Of a stretch of DNA of 64,000 nt, positions 2,564 through 13,566 are shown piece by piece. A program made the position numbers and the translations under genes. The notes below the pieces were generated by a model. It was given only the letters and a program-made list of their open reading frames with translations, did no database searches and was not told where the DNA came from. Every line of letters begins with the position of its first letter. The stretch's first letter is position 1. The stretch is from Pseudolabrys taiwanensis (GTDB lineage: Bacteria > Pseudomonadota > Alphaproteobacteria > Rhizobiales > Xanthobacteraceae). The DNA lies in the NCBI RefSeq assembly GCF_003367395.1, contig NZ_CP031417.1:3348001-3412000 (forward strand), in the 5' to 3' direction.

Positions 2564-5029
2564 TTATTGCCCGCGCGGCTTGGCGCGGCGGGTGGGCGGC
2601 GCATTGGCTGGATCGGCTGGCCAGGGATGACGCGGATAGCGGCCACGCATCTCGACGCGGACATCGGCATAGCTGCCGTGCCAGAAGCCCGGCAGGTCGC
2701 GCGTGATCTGCACCGGCTTGTGCCCCGGCGAGAGGAGTTCGATCACCAGCGGCACACGGCCGTCGGCGATCGACGGATGCTTCGACAGCCCGAACAACTC
2801 CTGCACGCGGATCGAAATCGTCGGCCCCTGCTCCGCCTCGTAGTCGATCGGCACTGCCGTGCCGGTCGGCGCGGTGAAATGCGTCGGCGCTTCCTCGTCG
2901 AGACGGCGGCGCAAATTCCATGGCACCGGCCCCATCACCGCGTCGGACAATTCATCCGCGCCGATCTGGCTGCGCGACGTCTTATCGATCAAGATCGGCT
3001 CGAGCCAGTCGGCGGTGTTGAGCGCAAGACCCTCGTTGGAAAGGTCCGGCCATTCGTCTCCTTCCGCTTTGCGCAGGAAGCCAACGCGCTTGCGGAATTG
3101 CAGCGCCGCTTTGCTCCACGGCAATTTGTCGAGGCCCAGCGAGACGATGCCTTGCGCCAAAGTGCGCGCCGTGTCGGCGTCGGGCGACACTTGCTTGATC
3201 TGCTCGGCCAACACCAGCGCGCCCAGCCGGCGTGTGCGGCGGGCGCGCAGCGATGCCGAGCCATTGTCGAAAGTGACGGCGTCGCGATCTTCGATCTTGC
3301 CGCCGAAGCGTGCTTCGATCTCGGGCAGCGTGATCGGCGCCGCCAGGAGGATGCGGCTCTGCACCGCCGCGCCGGTGAGTTCGGCGACGGCCAGGAATGC
3401 CTCGCGCGCGAGCGATGACGCCGGATCGACGTTGCCGCCGCGGCCATTGGCCAGCAGGAAAGCGCCCGTGCCGCCGCCACGGCTTTTGGCGATGCGATCG
3501 GGATAGCCGAGGGCAAGGATCTCCCCTGCCGATATTTCGCCGGCACCGCGGCCGCCGGCCGTGTCGGCCCACCGCTTCACCATCGCGCGCGCGTCCTCGG
3601 CGCGCTTGGAGCGATCACGCCGGAATTGGTCGAGGCGGTGCTCGAGATTGACGTCATCGCCGCCGAGCCCGCGCTCGGTGACGATCGCGGCGACGGTCGC
3701 CGCCATGTCGCCGGCGCCTTCGGCCGCCGCGTCGACCACCATGCGCGCCAGCCGCGGCGGCAACGGCAATTGGCGCAGCTTGCGCCCTTCCTCGGTGATG
3801 CGGCCTTGCGCATCGATCGCGTTGAGTTCCGTGAGCAACGTCTTGGCTTCACTGAGCGCCGCCGACGGCGGCTGATCGAGGAAGGCGAGCGTGCTGGGAT
3901 CCGTCGCGCCCCATTGCGCGAGATCGAGCACGAAGCTCGACAGGTCGGCGGACAGAATCACCGGCCGCGTATAGGCTTCGAGCGAACCGGTCTGCGGCTC
4001 GTCCCACAAACGGTAGCACACACCCGGCTCGGTGCGGCCGGCGCGGCCGCGGCGCTGGTCGGCGGCCGCGCGCGACACGCGCACCGTCTCGAGTCGCGTG
4101 ATGCCGACATCGGGCTCGTAGCGCGGCACGCGCGACAGGCCGCTGTCGATCACCACGCGCACGCCTTCGATGGTCAGAGACGTTTCGGCGATCGAGGTTG
4201 CCAGCACCACCTTGCGGCGACCGGCCGGCGCCGGCGCGATGGCGCGGTCCTGATCGCGCATGTCGAGCGCGCCAAACAACGCGACGACGTCGACCGATGG
4301 ATCGCGCACGCGTTCTTTCAGAAGCGTTTCGGCGCGGCGGATTTCGCCGGCGCCCGGCAGGAAGACGAGCAAAGAGCCGGGCTCAGCGCGCAGCGCACGT
4401 TCGACCGCGTCCGCCACCTGGTTCTCGATGCGCGCCCGCGGATCGCGGCCGAGATAACGCGTCTCGACCGGAAAGGCGCGACCCTCGCTCTCCACCACCG
4501 GCGCATTGCCGAGGAGCGAGGCGACACGCGCACCGTCGAGCGTCGCTGACATGACCAGCAGCCTGAGGTCCTCGCGCAGCCCCTGTTGCGCGTCGCGCGC
4601 CAAAGCGAGACCGAGATCGGCGTCGAGCGAACGCTCATGGAATTCGTCGAAGAGCACGGCGGCGATGCCGTCGAGGGAAGGGTCGTCCAGCACCAGCCGG
4701 GTGAAGATGCCTTCGGTGACCACTTCGATCCGCGTGCGTTTGGACACCTTCGAGCCGAAACGCACCCGCAGACCGACCGTGTCGCCGACCTGTTCACCGA
4801 GTGTCGCCGCCATGCGCGACGCCGCCGCCCGCGCCGCGAGCCGCCGCGGCTCCAACACCAGCACCTTCTTGTCCGTCGCCCATGCTTCGTCGATCAGCAC
4901 CAGCGGCACGCGCGTCGTCTTGCCGGCGCCGGGCGGCGCCACCAGCACGGCGGCGTTGCTCGTACCGAGGGCGCTGACCAGCCCCGGCAGCGCGGCGTCG
5001 ATGGGAAGGGGTGAAGAGAAGGTGCGCAT
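2564..5029 (-). CDS. hrpB: ATP-dependent helicase HrpB
   Basis: This 821-residue DEAH-box-type RNA helicase has the HrpB layout. Walker A is PPGAGKTTRVP (about residues 32-42) and the DExH motif is LFDEFHERS. The SAT motif is VMSATLDG, and motif VI is DQRRGRAGRTEPG. HrpB-specific C-terminal regions (HA2, HrpB_C) end near PGFWHGSYADVRVEMRGRYPR... as in the family. Length matches the usual 810-850 residues. The cellular role of HrpB is poorly defined; it is distinct from HrpA and from type III secretion HrpB. It is flanked by repeats on both sides, suggesting its own transcript. Confidence 0.95.
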   Translation of the reverse strand: MRTFSSPLPIDAALPGLVSALGTSNAAVLVAPPGAGKTTRVPLVLIDEAWATDKKVLVLEPRRLAARAAASRMAATLGEQVGDTVGLRVRFGSKVSKRTRIEVVTEGIFTRLVLDDPSLDGIAAVLFDEFHERSLDADLGLALARDAQQGLREDLRLLVMSATLDGARVASLLGNAPVVESEGRAFPVETRYLGRDPRARIENQVADAVERALRAEPGSLLVFLPGAGEIRRAETLLKERVRDPSVDVVALFGALDMRDQDRAIAPAPAGRRKVVLATSIAETSLTIEGVRVVIDSGLSRVPRYEPDVGITRLETVRVSRAAADQRRGRAGRTEPGVCYRLWDEPQTGSLEAYTRPVILSADLSSFVLDLAQWGATDPSTLAFLDQPPSAALSEAKTLLTELNAIDAQGRITEEGRKLRQLPLPPRLARMVVDAAAEGAGDMAATVAAIVTERGLGGDDVNLEHRLDQFRRDRSKRAEDARAMVKRWADTAGGRGAGEISAGEILALGYPDRIAKSRGGGTGAFLLANGRGGNVDPASSLAREAFLAVAELTGAAVQSRILLAAPITLPEIEARFGGKIEDRDAVTFDNGSASLRARRTRRLGALVLAEQIKQVSPDADTARTLAQGIVSLGLDKLPWSKAALQFRKRVGFLRKAEGDEWPDLSNEGLALNTADWLEPILIDKTSRSQIGADELSDAVMGPVPWNLRRRLDEEAPTHFTAPTGTAVPIDYEAEQGPTISIRVQELFGLSKHPSIADGRVPLVIELLSPGHKPVQITRDLPGFWHGSYADVRVEMRGRYPRHPWPADPANAPPTRRAKPRGQ

Positions 5030-7746: not shown

Positions 7747-10700
7747 ATGCCGACAGCCAAATCCAAGACCAAAGCCAAGACCGTCACGACGCCTGCGGAA
7801 ACCGCGCCGGCGCCCGCCGATTCCGCAATCCGACCCGTGAAAAAAGGCGATCACGTCTTTCTCGTCGACGGTTCGGGCTACATCTTCCGCGCTTACCACG
7901 CCATCCGCTTCGAGCCGCGCACGCCCGAGGGCGTCCACGTCAATGCGGTCTACGGCTTCTGCGCGATGCTCTGGAAGCTGCTCAAGGAGATGAAGCCGGA
8001 GGAGAAGCCGACTCATCTCGCCGTCATCTTCGACAAGTCGGAAAAGACGTTCCGCACGGAGATGTACAAGGAATACAAGGCACACCGGCCGCCGCCGCCG
8101 GAAGACCTGGTCCCGCAATTTCCGCTGATCCGCGACGCCGTGCGCGCGTTCGAAATCCCGTGCATCGAGCTCGCCGGCTACGAGGCCGACGACTTGATCG
8201 CGACCTATGCCCGCATCGCCTGCGAAGCCGGGGCCACGGCGACGATCGTCTCGTCGGACAAGGATCTCATGCAGCTCGTGAACGACTGCGTGGTCATGTA
8301 CGACACCATGAAGGACGTGAGAATCGGCGTCCCCCAGGTGATCGAGAAGTTCGGCGTCGGCCCCGACAAAGTGATCGAGGTTCAGTCGCTGATCGGCGAC
8401 TCGACCGACAACGTCCCCGGCGTGCCGGGAATCGGCCCGAAGACCGCGGCCGAGTTGATCAACACCTATGGCAATCTCGAAACCGTCCTCGCGCGCGTCT
8501 CCGAGATCAAGCAGGAGAAGCGCCGCCAGAGCCTCATCGACAATGCCGAGGCCGCGCGCATCTCCAAGAAGCTCGTCACCCTCGATCAGAATGTGCCGCT
8601 CACCGTGCCGATCGAAGAGATCGGCGTACATGAGCCGGACTACAAGAACCTCATCGCCTTCCTGAAGTCGATGGGCTTCAAGACGCTCACGCAGCGCGTC
8701 GCCGAGAAGAGCGGCGTCGACGCCGCTCAGGTCGAAGCCGACAAGACGGCGGCGCCCGCACCGTCCGGCCGCAGCGGCGGTCAGGGTCAGTTGGCGCTCG
8801 ATGCGCCGGCGCCGCGCACGACGAAGATCGGCGCGCCCGGCCCGTCGGAAACGCTGACGCCGATCTCGCTGGCGACGAAGCGCGTCGAGGTGCTGCGGAG
8901 CGCGCAGTTCGACGCCTCGAAGTATCAGGTCATCGATACGCTCGACACGCTGAACAAGTGGATCGCCCGCGCCTACGACACCGGCGTGCTGGCGCTCAAG
9001 ACCGAGACCAATACGCTCGATCCGATGCAGGCGGCGCTGTGCGGCCTCGCCATTGCCGTTGCGCCGAACGAGGCGGCCTATCTGCCGCTCGGCCATCGCG
9101 AGGCCAGCGACAACGAAGCCTCCGGCCTGTTCGCGGCCAAGCTTTGCGACGGGCAGATTCCCGAGCGCGCGGCGCTGGACGCGTTGAAGGCGATCCTGGA
9201 AGATTCCGCCGTCAGCAAGATCGGCCACGATGTGAAGCGCGACTGGCTGGTGCTGGCCTGCCGCGGCATCAACATCGGCGTGCTCGACGACACCATGCTG
9301 ATGTCCTACGTGCTCGACGCCGGCAAGGGCGCGCACGACATGGACGCGGTCGCGACCCGGTATTTCGGCCGTGCGCCATCGCGCTTCAACGACGTCAAGA
9401 ACAAGGACAAGGCGTGGTTCACGCCGGAGGCAACGCCGATCGCGCGCGCCGCCGCCTACACCACCGAGGACGCCGACGCCTCGCTCCGTCTCTGGTACGC
9501 GCTCAAGCCGCGCATGGCTGCGGAGAAGGTCGTCAGCGTCTATGAGACCTTGGAGCGGCCGATGCCGCGTGTCCTGGCGCGCATGGAGCAGCGTGGCATC
9601 GCCATCGATCAAGCCGTGCTGGCGCGCCTGTCGAACGACTTCGGCAAGAAGCAGGTCGCGCTGGAGCAGGAGATCAACACCATCGCCGGCGCGCCGGTGA
9701 ATGTCGGCTCACCCAAGCAGCTCGGCGACATCCTGTTCGGCAAGATGGGCCTGCCCGGCGGCAGCAAGACCAAGACCGGCCAGTGGTCGACCACCGCGCG
9801 CGAATTGGAGGAACTTGCCGAGCAAGGTCACGAGTTGCCGCGCAAGATCCTCGACTGGCGGCAGGTGTCCAAGCTCCGCTCCACCTACACCGACGCGCTG
9901 CCGACCTACGTTCATCCGGACACCAAGCGGGTCCATACGAGCTACGCGCTCGCCGCGACCTCGACCGGACGCCTCTCTTCATCCGAGCCGAACCTGCAGA
10001 ACATTCCGATCCGCACCGAGGACGGCCGCAAGATCCGCAAGGCTTTCGTCGCGCCCCCGGGCAAGAAGCTGGTTTCGGCCGACTACTCGCAGATCGAATT
10101 GCGTCTACTGGCCGAGGTCGCCAATGTGCCGACCCTGCGCAAGGCCTTCCAGGACGGCATCGACATTCACGCGATGACGGCTTCGGAAATGTTCGGTGTG
10201 CCGATCAAGGACATGTCGCCGGACGTGCGCCGCCGGGCCAAGGCGATCAACTTCGGCATCATCTACGGCATCTCGGCTTTCGGCCTGGCCAATCAGCTCG
10301 GCATCGAACGCAACGAAGCGGGCGAGTACATCAAGAAGTACTTCGAGCGCTTCCCGGGCATTCGCGACTACATGGACGAGACGCGCGACTACTGCCGCGA
10401 GCACGGCTATGTGCTCACCTTGTTCGGGCGCAAGTGCCACTATCCCGACATCAAGGCGTCGAACCCGTCGATCCGCGCCTTCAACGAGCGTGCCGCGATC
10501 AACGCCCGTCTGCAGGGCTCGGCCGCCGATATCATCCGCCGCGCCATGATCCGCGTGGAAGGCGAACTCGCGGACGCCAAGTTGAACGCGATCATGCTGC
10601 TGCAGGTTCACGACGAACTGATCTTCGAGGTGCCCGAGCAGGAAGTGAAGGACACCATCGCCATCGTGAAGGATGTCATGGAGGGGGCGCCCCACCCGGC

Positions 10701-10767
10701 CGTCGCTCTCAACGTGCCTTTGCAGGTCGACGCCCGGGCGGCCGACAACTGGGACGAGGCGCATTAG
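7747..10767 (+). CDS. polA: DNA polymerase I
   Basis: This 1006-residue polymerase fills gaps and removes RNA primers. Domains in order are a Lys/Ala/Pro-rich extension (1-33) and a 5'-3' exonuclease (about 35-330, with the H3TH GDSTDNVPGVPGIGPKTA). The 3'-5' exonuclease domain (about 390-580) and polymerase domain (about 620-1006) follow. Polymerase motif A is DYSQIELR (D779), motif B RRRAKAINFGIIYG, and motif C QVHDELIFEVP from Q953. In the exonuclease domain, motifs II (GHDVKRD) and III (YTTEDAD) are intact. Motif I reads ALKTETNTL: the metal-binding Asp (D355 in E. coli) is K418 here. The last 220 bp are duplicated at 11468-11688. Confidence 0.97.
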   Translation: MPTAKSKTKAKTVTTPAETAPAPADSAIRPVKKGDHVFLVDGSGYIFRAYHAIRFEPRTPEGVHVNAVYGFCAMLWKLLKEMKPEEKPTHLAVIFDKSEKTFRTEMYKEYKAHRPPPPEDLVPQFPLIRDAVRAFEIPCIELAGYEADDLIATYARIACEAGATATIVSSDKDLMQLVNDCVVMYDTMKDVRIGVPQVIEKFGVGPDKVIEVQSLIGDSTDNVPGVPGIGPKTAAELINTYGNLETVLARVSEIKQEKRRQSLIDNAEAARISKKLVTLDQNVPLTVPIEEIGVHEPDYKNLIAFLKSMGFKTLTQRVAEKSGVDAAQVEADKTAAPAPSGRSGGQGQLALDAPAPRTTKIGAPGPSETLTPISLATKRVEVLRSAQFDASKYQVIDTLDTLNKWIARAYDTGVLALKTETNTLDPMQAALCGLAIAVAPNEAAYLPLGHREASDNEASGLFAAKLCDGQIPERAALDALKAILEDSAVSKIGHDVKRDWLVLACRGINIGVLDDTMLMSYVLDAGKGAHDMDAVATRYFGRAPSRFNDVKNKDKAWFTPEATPIARAAAYTTEDADASLRLWYALKPRMAAEKVVSVYETLERPMPRVLARMEQRGIAIDQAVLARLSNDFGKKQVALEQEINTIAGAPVNVGSPKQLGDILFGKMGLPGGSKTKTGQWSTTARELEELAEQGHELPRKILDWRQVSKLRSTYTDALPTYVHPDTKRVHTSYALAATSTGRLSSSEPNLQNIPIRTEDGRKIRKAFVAPPGKKLVSADYSQIELRLLAEVANVPTLRKAFQDGIDIHAMTASEMFGVPIKDMSPDVRRRAKAINFGIIYGISAFGLANQLGIERNEAGEYIKKYFERFPGIRDYMDETRDYCREHGYVLTLFGRKCHYPDIKASNPSIRAFNERAAINARLQGSAADIIRRAMIRVEGELADAKLNAIMLLQVHDELIFEVPEQEVKDTIAIVKDVMEGAPHPAVALNVPLQVDARAADNWDEAH

Positions 10768-10770
10768 GCG
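10551..10770 (+). repeat. polA 3'-end direct repeat, copy 1 (intact)
   Basis: These 220 bp, covering polA codons from about 936 to the stop, recur at 11468-11687 in the same orientation, 917 bp downstream. I count 8 substitutions, with a perfectly identical 161-bp core (10579-10739). Differences lie only near the two ends. Confidence 0.9.
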
Positions 10771-10771
10771 C

Positions 10772-10800
10772 AAAAAACCGCCGGGACCCGGTCCCGGCGG
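10772..10800 (-). terminator. Intrinsic terminator for the secreted-protein gene
   Basis: A perfect stem of CCGCCGGGA and TCCCGGCGG with a 5-base loop (10778-10800) is preceded on the + strand by six A residues. Read on the - strand it is a strong hairpin followed by six U, suiting termination of the gene at 10836-11315. It starts 5 bp after the polA stop, so it may also stabilise the polA mRNA end. Confidence 0.85.
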
Positions 10801-10835
10801 CTTCAGATCAGCTCATCAGCTCAGAGCGACGAGGT

Positions 10836-11315
10836 TCAGGCGCCCTTGAGGACCTTGTTGCAGGCGCTCCAATAGCCGCCGCCCTTCTGGATCCACTTCA
10901 TGCCGCCGTTGGCGTTGTTCGCCTTGTTGGCATTGTATTGATCGACGCAGGTCTTTTCGCGAGCGACGCCGGCTTTCTCCTTCGCGTATTTAGGATCGAC
11001 GGCCTTCGGGAAGACGGCGTTCGTCGCCGCGGGCTGCACTGCGGGGGCGGCCGCCGGCTTCGCCGCCGCGGCCGGAGCAGCAGGAGCGGCCGCAGCGGGA
11101 GCCGCAGGCGCAGCGGCCGCGGCGTTGTCCGCGCACTCCTTCTTGCGGAAGTCGTTCCACTTCAGGCCGTTGAGCGTGCCGTCCTTCTTGGCCGCTGCGT
11201 ATTTGGCGCTGCATTCCTTCATCGTCAGCGCAGCGGCCGGCGTCGCCGGCAACAGCGCGAGACCCAGCAAAGCAGCAAGGGAAGCGATCGCTATCTGACT
11301 ATGGGATTTGAACAT
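10836..11315 (-). CDS. Small secreted protein with two cysteine-pair modules and an Ala/Pro linker
   Basis: This 159-residue protein has a clear signal peptide (about residues 1-29, ending ATPAAA). A first module has C at the start of CSAKYAAAKKDGTLNG, then LKWNDFRKKEC. An Ala/Pro-rich linker of about 55 residues follows. A second module runs from CVDQYNANKANN through GGMKWIQKGGGYWSAC. The two modules share the pattern C-x3-Y...K...G-x-KW...C, so they look like diverged copies, each with a likely disulfide. A strong ribosome site (AAGGAGGC) precedes the ATG. I do not recognise a function; such proteins are exported in Hyphomicrobiales. It lies between the two polA 3'-end copies and is convergent with polA. 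Confidence 0.8.
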   Translation of the reverse strand: MFKSHSQIAIASLAALLGLALLPATPAAALTMKECSAKYAAAKKDGTLNGLKWNDFRKKECADNAAAAAPAAPAAAAPAAPAAAAKPAAAPAVQPAATNAVFPKAVDPKYAKEKAGVAREKTCVDQYNANKANNANGGMKWIQKGGGYWSACNKVLKGA

Positions 11316-11467
11316 CGTTTGCCTCCTTGGGACAGACCGTCAATCGGTCATCATCTGGCCGCGCCCCTCGCCAATCTGGCGACAACGTGCGACCGAAAGA
11401 TGTCGCCGGACATTGGACGCCGGAGGACGGGATATCAAATAAAGTCGGCATAACCACACCGCCCCAG

Positions 11468-11688
11468 CCGCGTGGAAGGCGAGCTCGCGGACGCTAAGTT
11501 GAACGCGATCATGCTGCTGCAGGTTCACGACGAACTGATCTTCGAGGTGCCCGAGCAGGAAGTGAAGGACACCATCGCCATCGTGAAGGATGTCATGGAG
11601 GGGGCGCCCCACCCGGCCGTCGCTCTCAACGTGCCTTTGCAGGTCGACGCCCGGGCCGCCGACAATTAGGACGAGGCGCACTGAGCGC
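11468..11688 (+). pseudogene. polA: Duplicated 3' fragment of polA
   Basis: The segment repeats polA 10551-10770 and keeps its reading frame from GTG at 11472. It is cut by a TAG at 11667 where polA has Trp, five codons before the normal end. Inside the coding part, the other changes are silent: GAA to GAG, GCC to GCT, GCG to GCC, AAC to AAT, CAT to CAC. The stop itself changes from TAG to TGA. A pattern of silent changes suggests this copy diverged as part of a functional polA, or came from a related polA, before being fragmented. It retains motif C but no start signals and is not expected to be functional. Confidence 0.85.
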
Positions 11689-11760
11689 CGATCGGGCTCC
11701 GCCTCCGTTCATGGCCAGGAGAAGCCCGGCCATGACGGCGAAGACCTCCACGTTCGCGCG

Positions 11761-13566
11761 CTACGCCCGCCCCTGCCCCGCCACGCGGGCTTTGCGGTGC
11801 GCCACCATGCGCGACCGACGGGCCTTGGCGGCCTCACCCTCGTCGCTGTTGAACTCGCGCAGCAGTTTGAGAACGTACGGGCTCAGTTTCTTGTAAATGT
11901 CCTCGATCGAATCGATGCGGACCGCGCGGCTGAAAATGCCGTCCACATCGGCGTTGATCGATACGCCGATAACATCGACGAATTTCTCGGCCTCCATCAG
12001 CGCGACGACATCGCGAAAGTAATTCGTGGTGGCGTTGCTGAGCTCTTTGTTTCTCTTGCCGATATAAGTGCCGCTGATGTCCCCGTCGGTCACCACGAAC
12101 AGCAGGCGATGCTTGGCGAGGTTTTTCTTCAGCCGCTCGTAAGTCCACATCATCGCTTCGCCGTCATAGCTCAGATAGTGCATGCGCGTATCGAGGACGC
12201 TGCACAGGCGCTGGATCGTCTGCAGATTGTGCGGCTCCTCGCGCGTCTTGAACAAAAGGTAGAGCATCGAGCGGTTGCGCCCCGTCACCCGGGGAATCGC
12301 CTCTCCGGTCGTCGTGTGGCCGATAATCTCGGTCGGGATGCCGCCGCGCGAGAGAAGCTCGCTGAAACGGTCGGCGATCATGAAGCTCAGGAGATAGCGC
12401 GCGCCCTCCTGCATCGAAACGGACAGGTTGAACAGAAAGATCGCTTCGGTCTGGCGCTCCTGCTGCGCCTGTTCGATCAGCTTGACCTCGAGCGGCTGAC
12501 CGAAGGGATCGATGACGGCCTGTGTGAGGTGAAGCGGACGGCTTCCGCCTTCGCCCACGATCTGCCACAGCATCGACGACTTGGCGGGCCACGTTTCCCT
12601 GGCGTACTGGTCCCATGCCTTCTGGGCCCGGCTCAGTTCGCGCGCGTGCTGAAGATAGAGATCCTTGATCGACGCGGGCACGATGGGCCAGCTGGCGAAC
12701 TGATCGGGCCGCGTCACGCGATCGGTGACGGCGTCGGCTACCGGCAGGTAATAATCGAGATTGGGCACTTCGCCATCGGCGTGGCGCTTCTTGCGCGGCG
12801 CGGCGCGCTTGCGCCCGCTTCCCCGCTGCTTGGACGACGCCGAGGGATCTTTCTTCGTGCCGGCGCCGGCGTTGTTGGACACCGCGCGAATTCTGTCCAT
12901 CAGCGCGCGGTAGTCGAGAGCGGTTTCGTCCGGGTCATGCTGCAGCAGCCCGACGAAAGCCGCCGCCGCGTCGTTCAGCGCGCTCAACGGATGGAAGAAC
13001 TTGGCAAACTGCCGCCGCTTGTTGAGGAGACCGCGCAGCATCCTGGAGAATTCGGAAGGTCTCTTACCGGCTAGCTGAAAGATCCGTTCTTCGGTGAGCA
13101 GCGGCTCCAGATCCTGCGTTCTGGCGGCCAGCGCCGGCACTGTCTCGCGGGCGGCGCGCAGGACAATGAGAAAGACGGCCAGGTCGTACTGCATGATCTC
13201 GAGGTTCGGCGTCTTGAGAAGATAGCCGTGCAGCGCCTCGAGGTTATTCTGGATGCCGGCATACGTCGCGTATTCGCTCGTGGCGAAGGCGACATAGCCC
13301 ATGGCATCGAGCCCTGCGTCAAACATCTGCGCCTGCTCGGCATGCACGGGCCTGATCGCCGTCACGAACTCGGTATCGAGAAAGCGCAAGGCCAGAGCGC
13401 GCAGATCGTAAAAGCCCTTGAGCGCATGGTCGGCGCGGGGGTCCCAGGGGATCGTGGGCAGGGTTCCGACAGGCGTGTTTCTCTTTGGTCCGGTCAATCC
13501 GGCCAAGCTCTTCAACATGTCTTCCGGATTGACCGAGAGGTGCCGCTTCTTGGCTTGGCCGCGCAT
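11761..13566 (-). CDS. Stand-alone CobT-like protein with C-terminal VWA domain
   Basis: This 601-residue protein has an unassigned N-terminal half (residues 1-230), a basic Ser/Lys/Arg-rich linker (about 235-263) and a C-terminal VWA domain resembling that of cobaltochelatase CobT. Matching elements are IGHTTTGEA (415-423), the CobT signature-like YDGEAMMWTYERL (467-479) and VVTDGDISG (491-499). The metal site motif DxSxS reads N380-L-S-V-S384, so the first Asp is Asn. No CobS/AAA+, CobN or cobalamin gene is visible in the window, so cobalt chelation is doubtful. CobT-like VWA proteins also occur in phages and in MoxR/VWA pairs that remodel other complexes. The 200 bp upstream carries a short MoxR-like N-terminal ORF. 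Function unknown. Confidence 0.8.
   Translation of the reverse strand: MRGQAKKRHLSVNPEDMLKSLAGLTGPKRNTPVGTLPTIPWDPRADHALKGFYDLRALALRFLDTEFVTAIRPVHAEQAQMFDAGLDAMGYVAFATSEYATYAGIQNNLEALHGYLLKTPNLEIMQYDLAVFLIVLRAARETVPALAARTQDLEPLLTEERIFQLAGKRPSEFSRMLRGLLNKRRQFAKFFHPLSALNDAAAAFVGLLQHDPDETALDYRALMDRIRAVSNNAGAGTKKDPSASSKQRGSGRKRAAPRKKRHADGEVPNLDYYLPVADAVTDRVTRPDQFASWPIVPASIKDLYLQHARELSRAQKAWDQYARETWPAKSSMLWQIVGEGGSRPLHLTQAVIDPFGQPLEVKLIEQAQQERQTEAIFLFNLSVSMQEGARYLLSFMIADRFSELLSRGGIPTEIIGHTTTGEAIPRVTGRNRSMLYLLFKTREEPHNLQTIQRLCSVLDTRMHYLSYDGEAMMWTYERLKKNLAKHRLLFVVTDGDISGTYIGKRNKELSNATTNYFRDVVALMEAEKFVDVIGVSINADVDGIFSRAVRIDSIEDIYKKLSPYVLKLLREFNSDEGEAAKARRSRMVAHRKARVAGQGRA

Follow-up and report, generated by a model that had tools for sequence, protein, structure and literature searches.

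The stretch of DNA analysed here, to which we refer as the window, comprises 64,000 nucleotides of Pseudolabrys taiwanensis (NZ_CP031417.1, positions 3,348,001 to 3,412,000) and sits in a one-contig Pseudolabrys-type chromosome of 5,593,641 bp. Its polA gene, which encodes DNA polymerase I and is intact, is followed on the same strand by an orphan copy of its own 3' end, and a single gene on the opposite strand, hereafter the cargo, lies between the two (Table 1). The original prediction, made from the sequence alone, had described a direct repeat of the polA 3' end with a length of 220 bp, a distance of 917 bp, eight substitutions and an identical core of 161 bp; all of this was confirmed, the length being corrected to 221 bp and the distance being measured from start to start, in the same orientation. 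The orphan is 5'-truncated: its left boundary is abrupt and falls inside polA, with no polA body upstream of it, and its natural end is kept. The GCGC that follows the stop codon is common to both copies, which diverge thereafter. A chromosome-wide search with the 221 bp returned matches at E≤0.001 only at these two places. The polA pair was the longest direct repeat in a repeat search of the window (the next one was 89 nt at 83%), to which blastn added a weaker direct repeat of 288 nt at 70% (52592/53435). No RNA element was found at E≤1 in 10400-12000, and no tRNA in the window. That the repeat is an error of assembly is hardly credible: the chromosome is a single contig and the copies differ at eight sites, both of which argue against a simple artefact, and a similar arrangement occurs in an unrelated assembly (genome G070, described below). 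The locus is a real recombination scar, explicable by known processes.

Table 1. Features of the polA locus and of the comparable locus in G070.
Feature	Position	Strand	Remarks
polA, DNA polymerase I (1006 aa), intact	7747..10767	+	domains DNA_pol_A, 5_3_exonuc_N, 5_3_exonuc, DNA_pol_A_exo1
Repeat copy 1, working polA 3' end and 4 nt past the stop	10551..10771	+	
Tip of copy 1, putative donor sequence	10740..10771	+	differences rise from 2/189 to 6/28
Interposed segment, one putative transcription unit (terminator, gene, probable promoter region)	10772..11467	-	
Intrinsic-terminator hairpin of the interposed gene	10774..10804	-	-25.9 kcal/mol, z -4.55; counterparts in G045 and G047
Interposed gene (cargo), 159 aa	10836..11315	-	start resembles a signal peptide (by eye); without Pfam or NCBIfam match
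54-bp stretch, putative ancestral promoter	11391..11444	-	78% identical to sequence just upstream of yidB in the yidB-cargo pair of G045
Junction J2, where polA codon ~935 meets the interposed unit at its upstream end	11467..11468		putative illegitimate join
Repeat copy 2, orphan polA 3' end	11468..11688	+	left-truncated; natural polA end at right; internal TAG
Gene for a VWA-domain protein (CobT_C-like)	11761..13566	-	convergent to the orphan
polA end and decayed tail in G070, locus L263 (G070:C1:38500-47500)	3706-3816 and 4517-4627		111 bp at 89%

The window's own genome (G000) was compared with a genus set of 42 congeners (43 genomes with its own) and a family set of 296 genomes. A cargo match of some kind was present in 24 of the 43 genus genomes, the window's own included, and the cargo family was matched at E≤1e-20 in 146 of the 296 family genomes; strong orthologues (E below 1e-60), however, were found in only two of the 42 congeners, namely G047 and G045. 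The DNA homology of the cargo unit to these two starts at 10772/10773, i.e., at the first base or two past copy 1, and copy 1 and the cargo unit abut without a spacer. The prediction that the gene between the copies has its own terminator and a strong ribosome site was borne out by the hairpin of Table 1 and by a Shine-Dalgarno AGGAGG, seen by eye on the complement of about 11321-11328, whereas a simple consensus scan neither listed the hairpin nor found a sigma-70-type promoter. Since the terminator and the match to the upstream region of yidB are both present, and a search of this genome for yidB returned nothing at E≤1e-15, the segment may be read as a transcription unit, extending from terminator to promoter region, from which yidB has been lost.

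The same segment bears on the proposal that an element had targeted the 3' end of polA. In site-specific integration of this kind, as at tRNA genes or icd, a repeat of the gene's 3' end flanks the insert and the gene stays intact, which is indeed the arrangement seen here. Nonetheless, this origin is most improbable: there is no integrase between the copies, the 696 bp of chromosomal-type sequence leave no room for another gene, and the strong cargo orthologues lie near polA in two of the 42 congeners without any repeat. The cargo was also rejected as a phage gene, as it had no match in 50,697 phage records nor among viral contigs. In a plasmid search with a 1138-bp query, 58 records matched some part of the query; among the 20 plasmid records listed, the cargo stretch was matched by Rhizobium plasmids (about 65% identity over 34-36% of the query), the others being polA matches, and a distant plasmid-borne homologue of the cargo thus exists. 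Proteins 88-94% identical to the cargo product were also seen on other contigs (P0002, P0003 and P0004, from the sources lgn, jgi and ena), and one that is 80% identical (P0005) on a 691-kb contig of an NCBI record filed as Microbacteriaceae bacterium K1510, possibly a mislabelled or contaminated assembly.

The substitutions between the copies fall at 10566, 10578, 10740, 10749, 10751, 10764, 10766 and 10767 (copy-1 coordinates), with the identical core at 10579-10739, and they change, from copy 1 to copy 2, GAA>GAG, GCC>GCT, GCG>GCC, AAC>AAT, TGG>TAG, CAT>CAC and the stop codon TAG>TGA. This codon comparison agrees with the prediction that the coding changes are silent (five out of six) apart from a single Trp-to-stop. 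Clustering of the differences at the two ends of the repeat is real, since an identical gap of at least 161 among eight random substitutions has a chance probability of about 2e-4 (7e-4 with the stop change taken as one event). One breakpoint, at 10740, describes the pattern well (scanned-breakpoint permutation p 0.001, on few sites); the Fisher test at this chosen breakpoint gave 6e-5, or 0.003 when the Trp-to-stop was excluded and the stop change was counted once. With such a breakpoint the long core becomes unremarkable (P 0.08), because only three post-event changes are left for copy 2. Per site, divergence is also higher at the right tip (6/28) than at the left edge (2/28). For the surplus of silent changes, P was 0.003 if all occurred in a neutral copy, 0.03 if they were split between the copies and 0.12 if only transitions were considered; by itself, this surplus is only suggestive.

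Both copies were compared with the polA genes of relatives, which yielded 38 distinct 3' ends from the genus (37 of the 42 congeners and the second, divergent polA of G053) and 49 ends in all. Among the 38, the copy-2 states were found as follows: GAG in 11, GCC in 31, AAT in 7, CAC in 13 and TGA in 13. GCT (10578) was absent from the 38 and occurred once among all 49, and the internal TAG was never found among the 49. Two functional alleles appear to lie behind the tip differences, since all of these other than the Trp-to-stop are silent and each copy-2 tip state is known from polA of the genus, whereas GCT, TAG and perhaps GAG look like later changes in the orphan.

These patterns have to be set against a tandem duplication, which is the main rival explanation and a possible one, though we consider it doubtful. 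Here, a 917-bp unit that joins the cargo unit to the polA 3' end would have been duplicated in this lineage and the second cargo lost, with the VWA region in its place and gene conversion keeping the core identical. With conversion, this leads to the same junctions; J2 would arise in one ordinary mutational step, the cargo may already have been near polA, as it is in G045 and G047, and conversion tracts that stop short of the repeat edges would keep the core identical while letting the ends diverge. However, it requires a second event, a loss that begins exactly past the polA end. A dead copy, moreover, should diverge mostly non-silently, yet five of the six coding changes are silent, at the probabilities given above, and the larger per-site difference at the right tip also speaks against it. 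Gene conversion, which had been suggested in the original prediction as the force that kept the copies similar, is possible, but most of the pattern does not need it if copy 1 consists of the recipient up to about 10739 and a donor tip beyond.

The left edge of the orphan bears on yet another explanation, the single-crossover (Campbell) integration of a circular DNA that carries a polA 3' end and the cargo. It would produce the same end topology, and in E. coli, linear DNA can circularise and then integrate by a single crossover (PMC3240628). Such an integration predicts a donor-like left edge of copy 2, yet GCT at 10578 is virtually missing from the ends compared, and G047 carries the copy-1 states at 10566 as well as 10578; furthermore, replication, mobility and integrase genes are all absent between the copies. 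We thus hold it to be quite improbable. Of the circular integration first proposed, homologous recombination with DNA that bore the 3' end of a related polA agrees well with the data and was retained, whereas neither the circular element nor targeting of the gene's 3' end has positive support other than the shape of the repeat.

The neighbourhood of polA was also examined in relatives. In G047 the gene order is polA-lysE-patatin-cargo-yidB and in G045 it is polA-lysE-cargo-yidB, the cargo lying on the strand opposite to polA; the G045 proteins were identified by Pfam as LysE and YidB. Neither genome has a second polA fragment. In other genera, polA lay within 1.5 kb of the cargo in none of 17 cargo loci. 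Across 23 genus loci (one genome is counted twice and three loci have under 2.1 kb downstream), the region downstream of polA contained lysE in 9, patatin in 8, ridA in 11, nhaA in 2 and cargo in 2. Thus, polA is conserved while the gene content downstream of it is alternative, which is a trait of the minimal mobile element. A protein tree of polA (25 rows, with 7 of the 22 inner branches open) placed G000, G045 and G047 in different groups, and it does not tell inheritance of the cargo from its transfer. Along polA, sliding identity to 20 relatives showed G022, whose polA is among the closest to that of the window, as best or tied from 8707 to the end, in 9 of 13 steps, and other relatives in the four steps before; at its resolution of 240 bp, this comparison showed no change of affinity at the polA 3' end. 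In the proofreading domain (8947-9660), the relatives fall into two rough identity classes, about 70-86% and 60-68%, suggesting an old recombination or replacement inside polA.

On the other side of the orphan, the VWA gene had only distant matches in congeners (25-28% identity) and three other members at E≤1e-40 in the 296 family genomes. A short palindromic stretch after the orphan (11711-11744) has many copies in the genome and in many genus members, including one shortly past polA in G010. That the VWA gene is so rare gives weight to a mirror-image displacement, in which copy 2 (polA tail and VWA gene) would be the newcomer, with an illegitimate join at the upstream side of the cargo and homologous recombination further downstream; the strong cargo orthologues downstream of polA in two congeners fit this as well. 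In such an event, however, no crossover takes place within polA, and the jump in divergence at 10740 is left unexplained unless the donor allele was already a mosaic. We therefore rate it as improbable.

The family set was also searched with the last 72 polA residues as query (E≤1e-5). A match was obtained in 286 of the 296 genomes and two matches in five; four of these five were inspected, and both matches were close together on one contig only in G070 and G000. Other second polA matches were on other contigs, namely those in G044, G053, G093 and G292 and a weak 52-bp match in G009. In G070, which belongs to another genus, polA is followed by lysE (LysE-type), a degenerate polA tail and a PIN/FitA-like toxin-antitoxin pair; by eye, the tail can be followed beyond a gap as far as a TGA, in the place of the TAG of polA. 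When 105 loci with polA were scanned over 8 kb downstream for a fragment of its tail, G000 and G070 were again the only ones to give a match; of the 105 loci, five had under 800 bp downstream and three were plasmid records, and some genomes were represented twice. The frequency of such tails, 2 of 286 family genomes, is a lower bound, as more decayed tails would escape a search with this cut-off, close to which the G070 tail already scored (4.6e-6). The passengers of the two cases are thus both of types that occur near polA, lysE lying downstream of it in 9 of the 23 genus loci.

Considering all of the above, 3'-end displacement is the best explanation of the locus, in which our confidence and our doubt are evenly balanced. 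In this process, linear DNA from a related Pseudolabrys-type strain, carrying a polA end and the cargo transcription unit, would have entered the cell. Pairing of its polA portion with the chromosomal copy would have led to a crossover near 10740, not far from the 3' end. The working polA would have retained its own body and gained the tip, the stop codon TAG and the neighbouring gene of the donor. At its far end the incoming DNA, being without homology there, would have entered the resident polA by an illegitimate join, at the present 11467/11468. The 221-bp tail of the resident gene would have been shifted downstream, orphaned but still with its stop codon and its native flank, and a few changes would have followed in it, namely TGG>TAG and two silent substitutions close to the left end. 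The direction of the exchange, its donor and the homology-facilitated illegitimate recombination at J2 are what we infer from the anatomy. Displacement is favoured because the orphan ends at the natural polA stop yet starts inside polA, because homology of the cargo unit begins right where copy 1 ends, because divergence jumps at 10740, because the tip has the look of a second functional allele, because the downstream neighbours of polA vary in the genus, and because G070 holds a second case of the same shape. It is also favoured by precedent, as orphan 3' ends left by displacement were proposed for the type VI secretion system (T6SS) effector loci of Vibrio cholerae and for Rhs orphans (PMC5361080).

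Several points, however, weigh against displacement as described. A direct polA-cargo junction was not found in any strain, lysE intervening in both G045 and G047 and patatin additionally in the latter; neither was an empty site, in which polA is directly followed by the VWA flank of the orphan, and this flank was present in no relative examined. No donor was found. At the five informative tip sites, matches to copy 1 and copy 2 were 4:1 for G047, 2:3 for G045, 2:3 for G022, 5:0 for G002 and 4:1 for G009; assignment of the tip to a donor is thus weak, as the cargo carrier G045 leans to copy 2 and the best matches to copy 1 among 13 of the 49 ends, G002 and G009, have no strong cargo orthologue, and donor tracing through the tip was dropped for want of sites. 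The differences at 10566 and 10578 require separate later mutations, and the silent excess is not decisive alone. The two congeners of G070 do not present its prior state, matching only the polA part of a 3.6-kb query besides one unrelated match of under 40 bp each. Measurements have shown homology-facilitated illegitimate recombination to be rare (PMC3240628; PMC5361080). Lastly, the VWA gene next to copy 2 has a more foreign appearance than has the cargo next to copy 1, which agrees with the mirror-image event. Which side is the newcomer is not proven: the breakpoint argues for the copy-1 tip and the cargo, and the rarity of the VWA gene for the copy-2 side.

Close direct repeats were also scanned in 464,000 bases of the genome, the window included, which gave eight lines besides the polA pair: three in L277, one each in L273, L278, L283 and L285, and the 52592/53435 pair of the window. 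As gene-tail scars, L285 was rejected, being instead a pair of near-identical 62-residue genes, and so was L278, which looks like a dispersed noncoding repeat. Further repeats noted in the window were direct ones at 52257-52345/63050-63138 (89 nt, 83%) and 52592-52875/53435-53718, and an inverted one at 40476-40535/63853-63912 (60 nt, 87%). On plasmids, polA tails were found in 48 records, at one place each; of three inspected, a full-length polA was present in two and a 3' fragment in the third. A fragment of the polA 3' end that is not annotated (a match at 59% to residues 862-1006 of the window's polA) lies at about 4750-5172 of L253, the Pseudomonas aeruginosa plasmid pCHUAC-04_IMP (NZ_MZ581331.1), within a resistance region, at the qacEdelta1 edge and beside an ATP-binding cassette (ABC) transporter gene and IS1247. 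This insertion sequence originates from Xanthobacter, and the fragment was perhaps brought along with it.

Gain of a gene by homologous recombination usually remains near traceless, whereas a displaced tail reveals the crossover, the direction that it probably had and the former neighbour, and through its decay can serve as a rough clock. What makes the present scar notable is that a core gene is affected and that a second genus has one too. We tentatively suggest, as a possibility that falls short of being probable, that the polA 3' end is a recurrent anchor for integrase-free gene capture, in which incoming DNA with a conserved tail swaps the tip and leaves the old tail behind as a datable fossil; the two genera of the family would then have captured different passengers, the cargo unit in G000 and lysE in G070. 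If true, core-gene tails next to variable loci could provide a genome-wide record of captures, and if such events are common, scanning for 5'-truncated ends of conserved genes would measure gene gain by one-sided homology. In any case, a duplicated gene end that flanks a cargo is insufficient for calling an integrative element.

The locus shares features with several known systems. In the minimal mobile element of Neisseria, variable genes beside conserved genes are swapped by ordinary homologous recombination in the flanks. The variable gene content next to the conserved polA is alike, but a clean exchange duplicates no gene end, whereas the polA locus keeps a scar. In the prophage e14 of E. 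coli, the inserted DNA is flanked by a duplicated, mostly synonymous 3' end of the housekeeping gene icd, much as seen here; e14, however, has an integrase and a phage genome, neither of which lies between the polA copies. Homology-facilitated illegitimate recombination is experimentally known, though rare (PMC3240628), and resembles the proposed event in having one homologous and one illegitimate end, although at polA it is deduced from anatomy alone. The orphan 3' ends of the T6SS and Rhs loci are likewise proposed to form at a conserved homologous anchor, where a new 3' end arrives with its neighbour and moves the former 3' end or gene to a position further downstream (PMC5361080). They differ from the polA locus in that its anchor is a housekeeping gene of unchanged protein sequence, its passenger is an ordinary gene instead of an effector-immunity pair, and a single orphan is found instead of a string.

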